This document shows positions 36,968 through 44,275 of a stretch of 64,000 nt of DNA, in pieces. The translations under genes and the position numbers were made by a program. The DNA is from Saccharopolyspora sp. SCSIO 74807. GTDB lineage: Bacteria > Actinomycetota > Actinomycetes > Mycobacteriales > Pseudonocardiaceae. Location of the stretch: the NCBI RefSeq assembly GCF_037023755.1, contig NZ_CP146100.1:6292501-6356500 (forward strand). Reading direction: 5' to 3'. The notes under the pieces are model-generated. The model was given only the letters and a program-made list of their open reading frames with translations. It was not told the origin of the DNA and ran no database searches. Within the stretch, counting starts at the first letter, position 1, and each line of letters starts with the position of its first letter.

Positions 36968-38350
36968 GTGTACAGCGTTGTGCACTGGCTGCAGCACGAC
37001 ACCGCCGGGCTGCTGACGTTATCCGCGGCCGCGATCGCGGCGCTGCTGACGATGATCATGCGGTTCCGGGTGGAGCCGTTCATCGCGCTGATCATCACCG
37101 GGTTGCTGCTGGCGCTGGCCGCCGGATTGCCGGTGCGCGACATCGTGGGCTCTGCGCAGAAGAGCAGCGAATCCCTGCTGGAGAACGGATTCGGCAGCAT
37201 CCTCGGGCACATCACCGCGATCGTCGGGCTCGGCGCGATCCTCGGCGCGGTGCTGGAGAACTCCGGCGGCGCACAGTTGCTCACCCGCAGGCTGCTGGCG
37301 GCGTTCGGGCAGCGGCGCGCGCCGCTGGCGATGGGGCTGGCCGGGCTGGTGTTCGGCGTTCCGGTGTTCTTCGACATCGGGATCTTCGTGCTCGCGCCGC
37401 TGGTCTACGTCGCGGCCCGGCAGGGCGGGCGGTCGATCCTGCTCTACTGCCTGCCGCTGGTGGCGGGACTCTCAATGACGCACGCCTTCCTGCCGCCGCA
37501 CCCCGGGCCGGTGGTTGCCGCCGGGCTGCTCGGGGTGGACATGGGCTGGCTCATCATCATGGGGCTGGCCTGCGGACTCCCCGCGTTCGTCGTGGCGGGC
37601 GTGCTGTACTCGTCGTGGATCGGCAAGCGCATCCACCTGCCGGTGCCGGAAACGGCGGGCGAACCGCCCGAGGACGCCGGCGAACCGCCGCTCGGCGTGG
37701 TGGCGCTGGTGATCGGCTTGCCGGTGCTGCTGATCCTCGGCGGCACCTTCGCAGGCATCACGCTGCCGCCCGGTGCCGCGCTGGACGCGTTGACGTTCCT
37801 GGGAAATCCGGTCGTCGCGCTGACCATCGCGGTGTTGATCGCGTTCTGGCTGCTGGGCACGCGGCGCGGCCTGGGCGGGGCGGACATCGCGGAGCTGACC
37901 GCGCGGGCGCTGCGGCCGCTGGGCATGATCCTGCTGGTCGTCGGTGCGGGCGGATTCTTCGGCGAAGTGCTCTCGGAAACCGGGGTGGGCGATGCGCTGG
38001 CCGGATCGTTGCAGGCCACCGGACTGCCGGTGATCGCATCGGCGTACTTGATCAGCTCCGGGATGCGGATCGCGCAGGGCTCGGCGACGGTCGCGATCGT
38101 GACCACCGGCGGCATCGTCGCGCCGCTGCTGGCCGGATCCGCCTACTCGCAGCCGCAGCTGGCGCTGGTCGCGGTCGCCATCGGCGCCGGGTCGATCATC
38201 GCCTCGCACGTCAACGACGGCGGGTTCTGGATCATCTCGCGGTACTTCGGCATCCCCGTCGCCGAGATGCTCAAGACCTGGACGGTGCTGGAGACGATCC
38301 TGTCGCTGAGCGCGTTCGCGGTGGCGGCCGGGCTGAGCGTGCTGGTCTGA
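36968..38350 (+). CDS. GntP-family permease
   Basis: 460 aa with about 12-14 hydrophobic segments and GntP signatures (FFDIGIFVLAPLVYV, THAFLPPHPGPVVAA). The family carries gluconate and other acids, including D-serine (DsdX), so in this cluster it probably imports a D-amino-acid derivative. GTG start 16 bp after the amidohydrolase stop. 38351-38482 between it and the convergent MFS gene shows nothing clear. Confidence 0.9.
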   Translation: MYSVVHWLQHDTAGLLTLSAAAIAALLTMIMRFRVEPFIALIITGLLLALAAGLPVRDIVGSAQKSSESLLENGFGSILGHITAIVGLGAILGAVLENSGGAQLLTRRLLAAFGQRRAPLAMGLAGLVFGVPVFFDIGIFVLAPLVYVAARQGGRSILLYCLPLVAGLSMTHAFLPPHPGPVVAAGLLGVDMGWLIIMGLACGLPAFVVAGVLYSSWIGKRIHLPVPETAGEPPEDAGEPPLGVVALVIGLPVLLILGGTFAGITLPPGAALDALTFLGNPVVALTIAVLIAFWLLGTRRGLGGADIAELTARALRPLGMILLVVGAGGFFGEVLSETGVGDALAGSLQATGLPVIASAYLISSGMRIAQGSATVAIVTTGGIVAPLLAGSAYSQPQLALVAVAIGAGSIIASHVNDGGFWIISRYFGIPVAEMLKTWTVLETILSLSAFAVAAGLSVLV

Positions 38351-38482
38351 GCGCGATAGTCGCCGATCCGCGTCGCCGCCGGACTCCACGCCGGACCGTG
38401 GTTCCCTCTCCTGTCCCGCCGACTGACGCGCACCGGCCAGGACAGCTGCGCTCATCTCGGTGGCCGTACCGCGTGCGAGCCT

Positions 38483-39682
38483 TCACGACTGCCGTTGAAC
38501 CTGCGGCGCACCCGCGCGCGCCCGCAGCATGAGCGCGAGCACCGAGGCCGCCCCGGCCGCGAGCGCCGCGGTCAGCAGTGCCGCGCGGTGCGAACCGCCC
38601 GACCAGCCGACCAGTTGACCGGCCACGGCGGTTCCGATGCCGTTGCCGCCCCACATGCAGGTGGTCAGCCACGCGAACGCCTCGGTGCGGTGCTCGGCCG
38701 CGGCCGCGCTGCCCAGGACCAGCTGGTGCAGCGTGTCCCGCATCCCGCTGACCAGCCCGAGCAGCAGCAGGACCACGCCCGCGAGCACCGGTCCGGACGT
38801 CGCCGCCACGATCGCCAGCAGCAACGCCGAAACGGCGTGCAACGCCACCAGTCGCGGGCGGGCGGCGGTGTCGCGTTCCCGCATGCCGTAGCACAACGCG
38901 CTGAACACGGCTCCGGCCGAGAAGACGCTCAGCAGCACGCCGGAGGCTTCCGGCGCGGCGGCCGAGGTCGCCAGCGCGGACACCCCCACCAGCAAGCAGC
39001 CGAAGGCCACCATGTCCGCCGCGGCCATGCCGAGCAGCACCCGCACCCGCCCTTGCGCGAGCGGGCCGAGGAAGCCGCGAACGCCACGGGTGCGGACACG
39101 CTCGGCGGGCGCACGCAGGCCCGGCACTGCGATCAGCACGCCGAGGGCGGTGCAGACGCCGGCGACCCCGACCGCCGCGACCGGCGCTGCCAGCGCGAGC
39201 AGGCCGGAGACCACGAGCAACCCGCCCACGACCATCGTCTCGTTCAGCACCGCGTCGAGCGCGTAGGCGGTGCGCAGCTGCTCGGCGGGCAGGATCGCGG
39301 GCCAGCTCGCCCGGATCACCGGCGCGGCAGGCGGGGCGCTGCCGCCGACCCCGATCGCTGCCGCGATCAACAGCACCGGATCGGCCTGCGCGGCCAGCGC
39401 CAGCACCGTTGCCGCGCAGGCCAGGACGTGCACGACCAGCAGGGCGAGCAGCACCGCGCGCGGCCGGAAGCGGTCCACCAGCCTGCCGGAAACCGGCACG
39501 CACACCGCCAGGGCGACCGAGAACCCGGTCAGCACCAGGCCACCGATCGCGTAGCCGTGGGCGGCCGCGGCCGCCAGCAGCAGGCTCAGGTTGAGGATCG
39601 GCGGGGCGATCCGGGTCAGCGCGACCGCGGCGAACAAGCGGGGAACTCCCCGGTGTCCGAACAACGCTCGATAGGCCCGCAT
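38483..39682 (-). CDS. MFS transporter (probable exporter) downstream of the radical SAM/mini-ORF
   Basis: 399 aa with about 12 hydrophobic segments (LFAAVALTRIAPPILNLSLLL..., ALAVCVPVSGRLVDRFRPRAVLL between TM2 and TM3). Resembles small actinobacterial drug/peptide exporters. The start ATG 39682 (MRAYRALFGH) is preceded by GGGGGC; the frame is open to 39868 but the extension is low-complexity. Same strand as the radical SAM gene and the 11-codon ORF, hence a candidate product exporter. About 320 bp and a strong stem-loop separate it from the mini-ORF, so it may have its own promoter. Confidence 0.88.
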   Translation of the reverse strand: MRAYRALFGHRGVPRLFAAVALTRIAPPILNLSLLLAAAAAHGYAIGGLVLTGFSVALAVCVPVSGRLVDRFRPRAVLLALLVVHVLACAATVLALAAQADPVLLIAAAIGVGGSAPPAAPVIRASWPAILPAEQLRTAYALDAVLNETMVVGGLLVVSGLLALAAPVAAVGVAGVCTALGVLIAVPGLRAPAERVRTRGVRGFLGPLAQGRVRVLLGMAAADMVAFGCLLVGVSALATSAAAPEASGVLLSVFSAGAVFSALCYGMRERDTAARPRLVALHAVSALLLAIVAATSGPVLAGVVLLLLGLVSGMRDTLHQLVLGSAAAAEHRTEAFAWLTTCMWGGNGIGTAVAGQLVGWSGGSHRAALLTAALAAGAASVLALMLRARAGAPQVQRQS

Positions 39683-40001
39683 ACGCCCCCAGATCTCTGC
39701 GCCGGCCTTCCCCGGTGGCCTGGTCCCCAGTGCTTCGTTGCCGGCCTTGTCTCGTTCCCCGGCAGTGCCTTGATCCCCGGCGATGCCCGGTTCCGGGAGG
39801 CACTTCGTCGCCGGCTGAGACCTGTTCCCGGCTGCCCCGTGCCTGCTGCCCCCGTCCCGGTCCCGCAACGGCCGGTTCCCCAGTTTCCGGTCGGCGTCCG
39901 CGGTTGTCCCATCGACAGGCCGGAGTCGTTCAAGATCACCCGCACGGGTCCGAGCGGCGCCCGCGGCAGAGCAACCGGGGCGCCGCTCGGCACGGCCCGC
40001 C
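39683..40001 (-). other. G-rich leader between mini-ORF and MFS gene
   Basis: 319 bp without a convincing gene. On the minus strand the part next to the MFS gene is a run of degenerate copies of GCCGGGGAACNA/GCCGGCAACGAAG-like sequence (about 39690-39800), and two frames are open through it, one Gly/Thr-rich. Codon bias is weak, so I read it as an untranslated leader. It may be a transcript leader regulating the exporter. Confidence 0.4.
39950..39990 (-). terminator. 13-bp perfect stem-loop just after the mini-ORF
   Basis: Arms CCGAGCGGCGCCC (39950-39962) and GGGCGCCGCTCGG (39978-39990) are fully complementary with a 15-nt loop, beginning 12 nt after the mini-ORF stop. No T-run follows. It may be a partial terminator or a 3' stabiliser of the short message. 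Confidence 0.65.
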
Positions 40002-40037
40002 TCAGCGAATGCCTTCCGGCCAGGACGGCCACGCCAT
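40002..40037 (-). CDS. 11-codon ORF, candidate ultra-short RiPP precursor
   Basis: Encodes MAWPSWPEGIR. The reason to take so short an ORF seriously is its ribosome-binding site: on the minus strand AGGAGGTGATC, an uninterrupted complement of the 16S anti-SD tail, ends three bases before the ATG (8 nt from GGAGG to ATG). It is the best site I saw in the window. The ORF lies 71 bp downstream of a radical SAM gene on the same strand and is bracketed by two perfect stem-loops (40071-40093 upstream, 39950-39990 downstream). Two Trp-Pro units (W-P-S-W-P) offer aromatic side chains for radical crosslinking. It could instead be a leader peptide controlling the MFS gene. Start, stop and frame were checked base by base. 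Confidence 0.55.
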   Translation of the reverse strand: MAWPSWPEGIR

Positions 40038-40070
40038 GACGATCACCTCCTCCCCCGCTCGCGGGACACC

Positions 40071-40093
40071 GAACGCGCCGGTGCGGCGCGTTC
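40071..40093 (-). promoter_or_regulatory. 10-bp perfect stem-loop between radical SAM gene and mini-ORF
   Basis: GAACGCGCCG-GTG-CGGCGCGTTC: perfect 10-bp stem with a 3-nt loop, 15 nt after the radical SAM stop and 12 nt before the Shine-Dalgarno region of the mini-ORF. It could end part of the transcripts or act as a processing or stability element. Confidence 0.65.
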
Positions 40094-40108
40094 ACGCCGG
40101 ATCCGCCG

Positions 40109-41122
40109 CTACGGCGCGAAGGCCGGGCGGCGGTCGATGCGGGCGCGGACCTGCTCGGAACCGAAGTGCCGATCGAGCGTGCGGGCGGCCTCGGCCCACT
40201 GCTGGACGGTGCGCACACCGGAGAGGACTTCGACGACGAAGGGGTCGCGGCGGCGCTGAAGCGCGCGCTGCCAGAGCACGTCGCCCGGTTCCGACAGCAG
40301 CGTGCCGACGGTGCCCTCGTAAACGGGCATCGCCCGCACCGCACCGTCGGGTTCGACCTGGACCACGGGCAGCTCATCCGGTGCGTCCGGTCCCATCCGC
40401 AGCTCGAGGTTGTCGGTGCAGCCGACCTGCACCGAATCGGGCGCCAGCGACTGCAGGCGGCGCGGCAGTTCGGCACCGCCGAGCGCGGACATCTGCCCTT
40501 CGCTCAGCAATTCGTGCTCGCCGAATCCGGTGCGACTGGCCAGCCCGGCGGGGACCACCGCGCCGAATTCGAGCGCGCTCAACCGCGGGAATCGCGGCGC
40601 GATTTCCGTGCAATACCGCTCCAGCTGGTCGAAATTGCTCCGCAGCACGACGCCGTCGACGCCCATTTCGGCGCGCGCGCCCGATTCGATGGCGCTATCG
40701 AGCATGGAAAGCGCGGACATCGCCGCGGCGAACGAGCCCGGTCTGCCCCGGATGCGGTCGTGCACCTCCGCAGTCGCTCCGTCGAGGCTGACCACCACGG
40801 TGTCGCAGACGCGCAGGAGTTCGCCGACCATCTCGGCCCGCAACGACCACCCGCCGGTGAACAACGCGACCTGCACACCCGCGGAGCGCAACCGCGCTGC
40901 CACCTCGAAAATGCCGTTGACCAGCAACGGTTCGCCGCCGGCCAGCGCGACGGACTCCGGACCGAGTTCGATGATCGCGTCGGTGACGCGCAGCAGCCCC
41001 TCCCGGCCGAGCCGCCGCGACGGCCTCCTGCCCGACTCCGAGTAGCAGTGCACGCACCGCAGCGGGCAAGCGTAGGTGACGTCCCAAATCACTTTCTGCG
41101 GACCGGCCGCCGAGCCGCTCAT
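40109..41122 (-). CDS. radical SAM protein, probable peptide-modifying enzyme
   Basis: 337 aa. Radical SAM cluster motif YACPLRCVHCY (CxxxCxxC, about residues 17-27), GGEP motif (ALAGGEPLLV near 62), SLDG segment (VVVSLDGA near 111). The C-terminal part has the layout of a SPASM/twitch domain (CTDNLELRMGP..., VQVEPDGAVRAMPVYEGTVGTLL) but only one Cys, so auxiliary Fe-S clusters are probably missing. Start at the second of two ATGs (41122), which has GGAGG at 5 nt. Expressed from an AT-rich promoter unlike its neighbours. With the mini-ORF and MFS gene it makes a possible RiPP cassette. Other radical SAM roles cannot be excluded. Confidence 0.85.
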   Translation of the reverse strand: MSGSAAGPQKVIWDVTYACPLRCVHCYSESGRRPSRRLGREGLLRVTDAIIELGPESVALAGGEPLLVNGIFEVAARLRSAGVQVALFTGGWSLRAEMVGELLRVCDTVVVSLDGATAEVHDRIRGRPGSFAAAMSALSMLDSAIESGARAEMGVDGVVLRSNFDQLERYCTEIAPRFPRLSALEFGAVVPAGLASRTGFGEHELLSEGQMSALGGAELPRRLQSLAPDSVQVGCTDNLELRMGPDAPDELPVVQVEPDGAVRAMPVYEGTVGTLLSEPGDVLWQRALQRRRDPFVVEVLSGVRTVQQWAEAARTLDRHFGSEQVRARIDRRPAFAP

Positions 41123-41206
41123 CATTCCCTCCGAACCATTCCGCAACGCGCCGAATCAGCGCGCAAGCCGAACCGGCGGAAAACCGTGCAGACCTGTCAG
41201 ACACAG

Positions 41207-41235
41207 AGAATACGAGCGGGAAAACCGCGCAACAA
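41207..41235 (-). promoter_or_regulatory. promoter of the radical SAM gene
   Basis: Minus strand: -35 TTGTTG (41235-41230), 17-nt spacer, -10 TATTCT (41212-41207), about 85 nt before the start codon. The stretch 41160-41310 is clearly richer in A+T than the rest of the window. It includes repeated ATGCA/TGCAT words (for example 41304-41323), which may be a regulator site. 41311-41413 up to the uvrA stop holds only a small hairpin (CCGCA/TGCGG). Confidence 0.6.
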
Positions 41236-41413
41236 TACGCTGAACGAATGAGGAGAACGGCGACGAAATACAGCGCAATGCAAATGCAACAATAATCCTG
41301 AATCATGCACAGCAGGATGCATCACTGCAGGCCGGGTGAACGCCGCATTCCGGTGCGGTCGGGCAAGAACCCGCGCCCCGGCCCGCGGTGTCCCCGCGAG
41401 CCGGGACCGCGGC

Positions 41414-44275
41414 TCAGCTCTCCGCGAGCATCGGCGCCAGGAAGCGGCCCGTGTAGCTGCCGTCCACCTCGGCGACCTGCTCCGGGGTGCCCTCGGCGAC
41501 CAGCTCGCCGCCACCGGAACCGCCCTCCGGGCCGAGGTCGAGCAGCCAGTCGGAAGTCTTGATGACGTCCAGGTTGTGCTCGATCACGATCACCGTGTTG
41601 CCCTTGTCGACCAGCCCGTTGATCACGCCGAGCAGTTTGCGGATGTCCTCGAAGTGCAGCCCGGTGGTCGGCTCGTCGAGCACGTAGACGGTCTGGCCGG
41701 TGGAACGCTTCTGCAGCTCGCTGGCCAGCTTCACCCGCTGCGCCTCGCCGCCGGACAGCGTCGGCGCCGGCTGGCCCAGCCGCACGTAGCCCAGCCCGAC
41801 GTCCACCAGGGTCTTGAGGTGCCGGTGGATCGCCTTGATCGGCTCGAAGAACTCCGCGGCCTCCTCGATGGGCATGTCCAGCACCTCGGCGATGGTCTTC
41901 CCCTTGTAGTGCACCTCGAGGGTCTCGCGGTTGTACCGCGCACCGCCGCACACCTCGCACGGCACGTACACGTCCGGCAGGAAGTTCATCTCGATGCGCA
42001 GCGTGCCGTCGCCCGCGCACGCCTCGCACCGGCCGCCCTTGATGTTGAACGAGAACCGGCCCGGCTGGTAGCCGCGGACCTTCGCCTCGGTGGTGGCCGC
42101 GAACAGCTTGCGGATGTGGTCGAACACGCCGGTGTAGGTCGCCGGGTTCGACCGCGGGGTGCGCCCGATCGGCGACTGGTCCACCTGCACCAGCTTGTCC
42201 ACGTGCTCCAAGCCCTTGATCCGGGTGTGCCTGCCCGGGACCTGGCGCGCGCCGTTGAGCTTGTTCGCCAGGCTCGACGCCAGGATGTCGTTGACCAAGG
42301 TGGACTTGCCCGAGCCGGACACGCCGGTCACCGAGATCATGCAGCCCAGGGGAAACGACACATCGATCTTGCCGAGGTTGTGCTCGCGGGCACCGACCAC
42401 GGTCAACTGCCGCTTCGGGTTGCGCTCCCGGCGGCTCTGCGGCAACGGGATCCGCTTGCGGCGGGCGAGGTAATCGCCGGTCAGCGACTCCTCGTTGTCC
42501 AGCAGCTGCTTGTACGGGCCGGAGTGCACGACGTGGCCGCCGTGCTCACCGGCGCCCGGCCCGATGTCGACCACCCAGTCCGCGCTGCGCACGGTGTCCT
42601 CGTCGTGCTCGACGACGATGAGGGTGTTGCCCAGGTCGCGCAGTCGGCTCAGCGTCTCCAGCAGCCGGTGGTTGTCCCGCTGGTGCAGCCCGATCGACGG
42701 TTCGTCCAGCACGTAGAGGACGCCGACCAGGCCGGACCCGATCTGCGTGGCCAGCCGGATGCGCTGCGCCTCACCGCCGGACAGCGTCCCGGCCGCGCGG
42801 TCCAGCGACAGGTAGTCCAGGCCCACGTCCAGCAGGAACCCCAGCCGGGCCTGCACCTCCTTGAGCACCCGGCCGGCGATCATCTCCTCCCGGTGGCCCA
42901 GCACCAGGCCGTTCAGGAAATCCGCGCAGTCCTGCACGCTCAGCGCGCTGACCTGCGCGATCGAGAGCTCGCCGCGATCGGCGCCCTGCATGGTCACCGC
43001 GAGGATCTCGGGCTTGAGCCGGGTTCCCTCGCAGGCCGGGCAGGGCACGTCCCGCATGTAGCCCTCGTACTTCTCGCGGGCGTAGTCGGACTCGGTCTGC
43101 TCCAGCCGCCGCTCCAGGAACGGGATCACGCCCTCGTAGGAGGCGTAGTAGGAGCGCTGCCGCCCGTAGCGGTTCCGGTAGCGCACGTGCACCTGATCGC
43201 TGGTGCCGTGCAGGACCGCCTTCTTCACCTTCGTCGGCAACCGCTTCCACGGCGTGTCCATCCGGAAACCGACCGACTCGGACAGCGAGGTCAGCAGCCG
43301 GGTGAAGTACTCGGCGGTGTGCCCACCGGCCCACGGCGCGATGGCGCCATCGCCCAGCGGCAGGTCCTCGTCCGGCACGACGAGCTCGGGATCGACCTCC
43401 TTGCGGATGCCGAGCCCGGCGCATTCCGCGCAGGCGCCGTAGGGCGAGTTGAACGAGAACGAGCGCGGTTCCAGCTCGTCCACGCCCAGCGCGTGCCCGT
43501 TCGGGCAGGCCAGGTGCTCGGAGAAGCGGCGCTCGCGGTTCGGGTCGCCCTCTTCGACGTCGACGAACTCCAGCACCACCAGCCCGTCGGCCAGCCGCAG
43601 CGCGGTCTCGATCGAATCGGTGAGCCGCTGCTTGGCGTTCGCCTTCACCGTCAGCCGGTCCACGACCACGGCGATGTCGTGCTTCTCCTGCTTCTTCAGC
43701 TTCGGCGGCGACTCCAGCTGGTGCACCTCGCCGTCCACCCGGGCGCGCGCGTAGCCCTGCGACTGCAGCTGCTCGAACAGGTCGACGTACTCGCCCTTGC
43801 GGCCGCGGATCACCGGGGCGAGCACCTGGAAGCGGGTGCGCTCCGGCATCTCCAGCACCTGGTCGACGATCTGCTGCGGGGTCTGCTTGCTGATCGGCTC
43901 ACCGCAGGTCGGGCAGTGCGGGTTGCCCGCGCGGGCGTAGAGCAGCCGCAGGTAGTCGTGCACCTCGGTGATGGTGCCCACCGTGGAGCGCGGATTGCGG
44001 CTGGTCGACTTCTGGTCGATCGACACCGCGGGCGAGAGGCCTTCGATGAAGTCCACGTCGGGCTTGTCCATCTGCCCCAGGAACTGCCGCGCGTACGCCG
44101 AGAGCGACTCCACGTAGCGCCGCTGGCCCTCCGCGAAGATGGTGTCGAATGCGAGGCTGGACTTGCCGGAGCCGGACAGCCCGGTGAACACGATGAGGCT
44201 GTCGCGCGGCAGGTCGAGGTCGATCCCGCGCAGGTTGTGCTCACGGGCGCCGCGGACGACGAGGCGGTCGGCCAC
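41414..44275 (-). CDS. uvrA: excinuclease ABC subunit A
   Basis: 953 aa, full length. Two ABC ATPase modules: Walker [10 protein letters not shown] near 30 and GVSGSGKST near 640; signatures [13 protein letters not shown] and [13 protein letters not shown]; zinc fingers CPTCGEP-type, CPACEGTRL and CEACAGDG...CEVCGG. Damage recognition in nucleotide excision repair with UvrB/UvrC. GTG 44275 gives [15 protein letters not shown], the family start; the 17-residue upstream extension is rejected. No LexA box recognised upstream. Confidence 0.97.

Follow-up and report, generated by a model that had tools for sequence, protein, structure and literature searches.

An 11-codon open reading frame beside a radical SAM gene of Saccharopolyspora sp. 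SCSIO 74807, a candidate leaderless precursor peptide

Described systems and the present locus

Precursors of ribosomally synthesized and post-translationally modified peptides (RiPPs) normally carry a leader. The subject here is a cassette in a 64,000-nucleotide stretch of Saccharopolyspora sp. SCSIO 74807 (NZ_CP146100.1, positions 6,292,501 to 6,356,500; this whole stretch is called the window), in which the gene of a radical S-adenosylmethionine (SAM) enzyme is followed by an open reading frame (ORF) of 11 codons, the mini-ORF, and by the gene of a major facilitator superfamily (MFS) transporter (Table 1). The mini-ORF most probably encodes a leaderless RiPP precursor, which would make the cassette a minimal RiPP locus. 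In keeping with RiPP loci in general, relatives of this cassette retain a ribosomally encoded precursor ORF next to the modifying enzyme.

Several described systems share part of this arrangement. As in triceptides, an aromatic residue defines the motif in question; a triceptide study reportedly names Tyr and His motifs in its title, and motifs with Trp and Phe also occur. Triceptide enzymes carry SPASM auxiliary clusters and act on longer precursors with leaders, whereas neither SPASM cluster cysteines nor a leader were found here. Relatives of the window's enzyme lie in clusters of ALQxL class IV and class III lanthipeptides, where an aromatic residue followed by Pro (aromatic-Pro) stands at the leader/core boundary, but the 11-residue peptide of the window has neither an ALQxL or LxLQxL leader nor a Cys. 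MftC, SkfB and PqqE are among the nearest described sequences in the radical SAM barrel; the 10 sequences retrieved by a profile search of the PDB align over the N-terminal half or less. The family model of the mycofactocin maturase (NCBIfam TIGR03962) gives 93.3 bits, far below its curated cut-off of 265. Biarylitides, according to an excerpt of PMC13417212, also have aromatic core residues and a precursor gene so small that it escapes automatic detection, but theirs is a five-residue precursor with cytochrome P450 crosslinkers, while the precursors here have 10-12 residues and the enzyme next to the mini-ORF is a radical SAM protein. Proteusin and epipeptide epimerases are similar in that radical SAM activity without a leader is described, the proteusin type being single-cluster (PMC8326336, in part); in the present family, no strictly conserved cysteine corresponds to the critical one of these epimerases. 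In the openly licensed literature listed (titles and beginnings of abstracts), no radical SAM partner for so short a precursor appears, nor did any of five peptide strings give a hit, both of which are weak evidence of absence.

Conservation of the short precursor

The mini-ORF reads ATG GCG TGG CCG TCC TGG CCG GAA GGC ATT CGC TGA and begins 71 nt after the radical SAM stop codon, on the same strand. Its Shine-Dalgarno sequence, AGGAGGTGATC, is the sole match of at least 10 nt ahead of any start codon on both strands of the window (ATG, GTG and TTG starts, 13 bases upstream scanned). The mini-ORF, its distance from the radical SAM gene and its ribosome-binding site had been pointed out in an initial annotation of the window; all are found in the sequence, the Shine-Dalgarno match being of 11 nt.

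The window's enzyme belongs to a clade of five rows from four species (support 98/96) in the 44-row comparison of radical SAM loci, and all five have a mini-ORF. In L057, from the same species, MAWPSWPEGIR lies directly 3' of the enzyme gene, and the ORFs at the same place in L043, L044 and L045 encode MAFWPPAKGTHA, MAYWPPTKVSH and MAYWPPTTVSH. A second short clade of four rows (L050, L052, L053 and L054; support 100/100) has the peptides MAYPPTGVGR, MAYPPTGLGR, MAYPPTGLGR with a GTG start, and MAFPPTTLGGTR, the last with a weaker ribosome-binding site and read by eye from the printed sequence; L054 was found by position. In this clade the mini-ORF lies upstream of the enzyme gene, on the opposite strand, ahead of two genes of an ATP-binding cassette (ABC) transporter cluster. 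One origin of both ultra-short clades is not rejected (approximately unbiased test, p-AU 0.19).

The mini-ORFs have in common an initial Met-Ala followed by one or two aromatic residues and a Pro. Aromatic-Pro is present in all nine rows of the two short clades and in nine of the ten short ORFs taken as precursors, the exception being that of L047. The initial annotation had proposed that homologues of the enzyme should keep a mini-ORF close by, and that an enzyme without one, or freely drifting codons, would speak against the proposal; the mini-ORF is kept in both clades (5 + 4 rows) and neither contrary outcome was borne out. It had also named a conserved W-P-x-W-P as something to look for, but among the rows found that pattern, and with it the basis for a Trp-Trp link, occurs only in the window's own species.

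A rule blind to the motif gives a similar picture. In the flanks of the 44 radical SAM rows, 10 ORFs are 6-20 codons long and preceded by at least 7 nt of Shine-Dalgarno match, against 0.69 expected. The flanks, 350 nt after the enzyme gene and 450 nt divergent before it, were chosen after the mini-ORFs had been seen, and the expectation was derived from the remaining parts of these loci, with coding DNA counted in; since the rows are related and include near-copies, the figure is not a formal probability. Nine of these 10 ORFs start with Met-Ala and eight have aromatic-Pro, compared with 3/29 in the background; the tenth is a 15-codon GTG ORF in L071 that is without the motif.

Aromatic-Pro in longer precursors

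Elsewhere in the enzyme family, the peptides next to the enzyme have 27-55 residues. Of six submitted to NCBIfam, four match NF038157, the model of the class IV lanthipeptide leader of ALQxL type, and three of these four score above the cut-off. The clade neighbouring that of the window has class III-like leaders with HPC in 7/7 rows and groups with the window's clade at 90/91, in a tree whose root serves for drawing only. A lanthionine-synthetase cluster is present in 23 of the 44 rows, as counted by an ORF rule able to miss genes; domain analysis of a single representative gave RamC_N, Pkinase and LANC_like. Many of the loci with longer precursors hold a lanthionine synthetase or an ABC transporter. 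Altogether, aromatic-Pro is found in a short precursor in 9 of the 44 rows and in a longer peptide in 30; 1 row has a short ORF that is without it, and 4 have no precursor of their own. When the five longer peptides found by the motif and the one found by position (L054) are removed, aromatic-Pro is present in 33/34 rows, in peptides chosen by eye from lists.

The link between motif and enzyme was examined in a control in which ALQxL precursors were sought regardless of the enzyme, within one family of genomes and with class III-like leaders falling outside it. With the enzyme, aromatic-Pro precedes the first Cys in 18/18 loci and 27/28 peptides, mostly as L-[WYF]-P-C; without the enzyme, it does so in 0/11 loci and 0/14 peptides, and the site reads LRGC, LRDC, LQIC, LRPC and the like. 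The difference between loci (Fisher p 3e-8) persists as 13/13 versus 0/8 when near-duplicates are removed. Two of the 18 loci, L105 and L111, were selected by the motif, and without them the count is 16/16. Two of the 14 enzyme-free peptides carry Phe-Pro further on. Genome G759 has both forms, LWPC beside the enzyme and QLRGC on another contig. By this control, it is the aromatic residue before Pro that goes with the enzyme, and this is also what is retained in the mini-ORFs; in the precursors found the residue is W, Y, F or H.

Pro alone at the ALQxL site occurs without the enzyme, while an aromatic residue before Pro does not. Two enzyme-free ALQxL precursors, in L122 and L127, have LRPC where LWPC stands elsewhere, as if Pro at the leader/core site were older than the aromatic residue. 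Two further loci, L096 and L114, have peptides of 51 and 52 residues that start with MSTELLMEGADAYTSLAEVATV close to a radical SAM gene, with RWPDQ or AFPPN in mid-chain and a Cys near the end; these are perhaps another type of precursor.

The enzyme and its possible reaction

The CxxxCxxC and GGEP motifs of the window's enzyme, and a tail without conserved cluster cysteines, agree with the initial annotation on motif reading and in the 44-row alignment. The likeness of the tail to SPASM was judged by eye; none of the SPASM auxiliary-cluster cysteines is conserved in the alignment, and Cys236, in the tail of the window's enzyme, is common to just 5/44 rows; the tail holds no invariant cysteine. 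Outside the SAM motif, Cys172 is present in 41/44 rows. In a side observation, L048 (G049:C149) has two radical SAM copies in one cluster, which also encodes a lanthionine synthetase of the RamC type and an ABC transporter.

The conserved mini-ORFs and aromatic-Pro support the initial proposal that the peptide is the substrate of the enzyme. The enzyme gene and the mini-ORF would be co-transcribed, and more peptide would be translated owing to the strong ribosome-binding site, while the GC-rich hairpin 3' of the mini-ORF probably curbs read-through into the transporter gene or shields the 3' end. The radical SAM enzyme would then bind the leaderless peptide directly and modify the aromatic residue that precedes proline, Trp-Pro in the window; an enzyme that reads the core only would be compatible with a substrate lacking a leader. 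Met, and perhaps Ala, would be removed before the MFS protein exports the product. In L043, L044 and L045, a shared type of peptidase, M28 by Pfam in L043, might shorten the exported peptide at its N terminus.

That only W, Y, F or H stands before Pro argues for chemistry on the ring. Ranked first, tentatively and at somewhat less than even odds, is a bond by which the aromatic side chain would form a ring with a neighbouring residue, most probably the residue that follows Pro, and a reaction of some other kind appears somewhat doubtful. Ranked second, and rather unlikely, is epimerization, in which a leader-independent epimerase would convert the aromatic residue before Pro to its D form; this is a variant of the precursor reading and not a departure from it. 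The presence of just one cluster speaks for a redox-neutral step, of which epimerization is an example, with Cys172 as the candidate hydrogen donor, and proteusin epimerases are reported as single-cluster and leader-independent in the part of PMC8326336 that describes them. Against it, the enzymes of L109 and L056 do not have Cys172 yet have motif-bearing precursors, that of L109 has no cysteine outside the SAM motif at all, and the W/Y/F/H restriction suggests side-chain chemistry.

Weighing the precursor reading

Several points weigh against a leaderless precursor. The product, the transcript and the peptide are predictions from the sequence. The close pairs of loci, alike beyond the ORF, are by themselves no proof of selection on its codons: L044 and L045 differ by two bases in the ORF, one of them silent, with the spacer ahead of the ribosome-binding site largely unalignable and the stretch 3' of the ORF well kept, while the differences between the window and L057 lie in the upstream spacer, as two one-base gaps and changes in the bases next to them, the ORF and at least 100 bases after it being identical. 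It is the comparison across genera, not that of close pairs, that supports the peptide. Four rows (L048a, L055, L072 and L074) turned up no precursor of their own, and one of the three peptides of L071 is without aromatic-Pro despite the enzyme. In L047, whose enzyme is a distant member of the family, a 12-codon ORF, MALPKLDPRKTW, lies 15 nt after the radical SAM stop with a 10-nt Shine-Dalgarno match and is without aromatic-Pro. The only cysteines invariant in 44/44 rows are Cys20, Cys24 and Cys27, all of the SAM motif, while SPASM or twitch domains with extra clusters are present in a sizeable proportion of the radical SAM enzymes of RiPPs (PMC8326336, in the part that treats them). A structure model from the single window sequence was too poor for use (pLDDT 41).

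The L047 ORF was not counted as the same kind of precursor, being without aromatic-Pro and outside both short clades. The protein that follows it resembles the biotin transporter BioY.

Trp and Pro codons, a strong ribosome-binding site and a hairpin between the mini-ORF and the transporter gene are also what would be expected of a regulatory leader peptide, at which ribosome stalling at the Trp/Pro codons would attenuate the transporter gene. This is very improbable, as the next gene differs among relatives (M28 peptidase in L043, ABC-type in the second clade), the second-clade peptides are without Trp, it is the radical SAM gene that stays with the mini-ORF throughout, and longer lanthipeptide-type precursors share the motif. 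Short exported peptides can serve as signals, and modification of this one is a prediction; export of the unmodified peptide, for example as a signal, with the enzyme acting on something else, is about as improbable as the leader peptide, for most of the 44 rows have RiPP-type precursors in the company of the enzyme, and the motif tracks the enzyme, not one transporter type. A chance ORF, although short ORFs are common in the window, is practically dismissed by the excess of strong-Shine-Dalgarno ORFs in the flanks and by similar peptides across genera.

Layout and surroundings of the cassette

Table 1. Features of the cassette, in window positions
Feature	Position	Strand	Basis
Radical SAM enzyme of 338 aa; tail resembles SPASM but has no conserved cluster cysteines	40109..41125	minus	motifs, family and alignment comparison
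Mini-ORF MAWPSWPEGIR, 11 codons, proposed leaderless precursor	40002..40037	minus	sequence read, relatives, ORF count in flanks
Shine-Dalgarno sequence AGGAGGTGATC, 11-nt match	40041..40051	minus	sequence read and window start-codon survey
Perfect hairpin, 10-bp stem, between radical SAM stop and mini-ORF	40071..40093	minus	sequence
Hairpin, 13-bp stem, 3' of mini-ORF	39950..39990	minus	sequence read and fold
AT-richer stretch ahead of radical SAM gene, presumed promoter region	41150..41330	minus	GC windows
MFS transporter, 399 aa, proposed exporter	38483..39682	minus	Pfam MFS_1, relatives' starts, BLAST clustering

Both perfect stems proposed around the mini-ORF were located. The 13-bp stem pairs 39990-39978 with 39962-39950 and is recovered in the computed fold (z -3.9); a strong hairpin is likewise present 3' of the mini-ORF in L043, L044 and L045. 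The region ahead of the radical SAM gene is indeed richer in AT than its surroundings, as had been noticed, with a GC fraction of 0.53-0.61 over 41075-41374 against 0.63-0.79 in the remaining 150-base windows of 38300-41974; no sigma-70 consensus was found in this stretch. The spacer between the mini-ORF and the MFS gene (39683-40001, about 320 nt), in which GGGGAAC- and CCGG-rich words recur, is longer than its counterpart in L044 and L045. The window and L057 each have a 138-codon GTG ORF overlapping the mini-ORF in a different frame, which was taken as noise because no similar ORF is listed in L043-L045.

The MFS gene is confirmed by Pfam, on the same strand as the mini-ORF. Relatives favour its start at 39682 over 39868, and its protein falls in a BLAST cluster with genes of L044, L045 and L057. 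The role of an MFS protein as exporter is not universal: the second clade has ABC-type genes, and in L043 an M28 peptidase gene, not an MFS gene, is next after the mini-ORF. The peptidase cluster is common to L043, L044 and L045; it was assigned to M28 by Pfam on the L043 protein, the only one tested, whose N terminus appears signal-like by eye. ORF clustering placed no member of it in the window row and no lanthionine synthetase within about 9 kb in the window.

The window is part of a 6.69-Mb single-contig genome. In four other Saccharopolyspora species (L154-L157), the genes that flank the cassette, uvrA and a permease that is presumably GntP-type, lie about 5 kb apart, and the fetched stretch between them gave no radical SAM or MFS protein match; the site is therefore taken as a variable spot.

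Distribution of the enzyme

At E<=1e-30, the enzyme has matches in 13/390 genomes of the family, at 17 places. The four other species of the genus have none at this threshold; their best matches (about 1e-20 to 1e-21) are other radical SAM proteins, aligned in the barrel region. Profile searches at E<=1e-60, with draws that overlap between taxa, matched 6/397 genomes of the order, 5/394 of the class, 21/220 of family f31, 3/121 of the genus of G658, 1/150 of the family of G1059, 1/3 of the family of G393 and 13/160 of the order of G722. A scan of genome contigs gave two loci, L004 (same species, 100% over 338 residues) and L005 (30% over residues 9-171). A plasmid search retrieved no close full-length relative: 100 records matched, one with at least 80% query coverage, at 28% identity. 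Two of the 44 rows, L048a and L048b, are from one contig, and L093, listed without a precursor, and L158 were left out of the 44.

Implications

A leaderless RiPP class is somewhat favoured, in which a single-cluster radical SAM enzyme that recognizes only aromatic-Pro would carry out an undescribed reaction on precursors of 10-12 codons, having arisen from class III/IV lanthipeptide tailoring enzymes through loss of leader and synthetase, once or twice. To our knowledge, such a class, if real, would have the shortest type of precursor for a radical SAM enzyme. Precursors of 10-12 codons easily escape gene callers, and aromatic-Pro provides a handle for genes below the size considered by annotation pipelines. 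The need for a leader varies among RiPP radical SAM enzymes, some requiring one and others being reported as active without it (PMC8326336, in part). As one enzyme family apparently has natural substrates with and without leaders, leader dependence is directly testable, and a substrate short enough for synthesis and a cassette of two or three genes make for a simple assay. Radical SAM enzymes in lanthipeptide clusters are already known (PMC7268733, in part), and no account of an aromatic-Pro tailoring step there appears among the openly licensed literature listed. In class III/IV lanthipeptide clusters, the aromatic-Pro motif points to the target residue of radical SAM tailoring.

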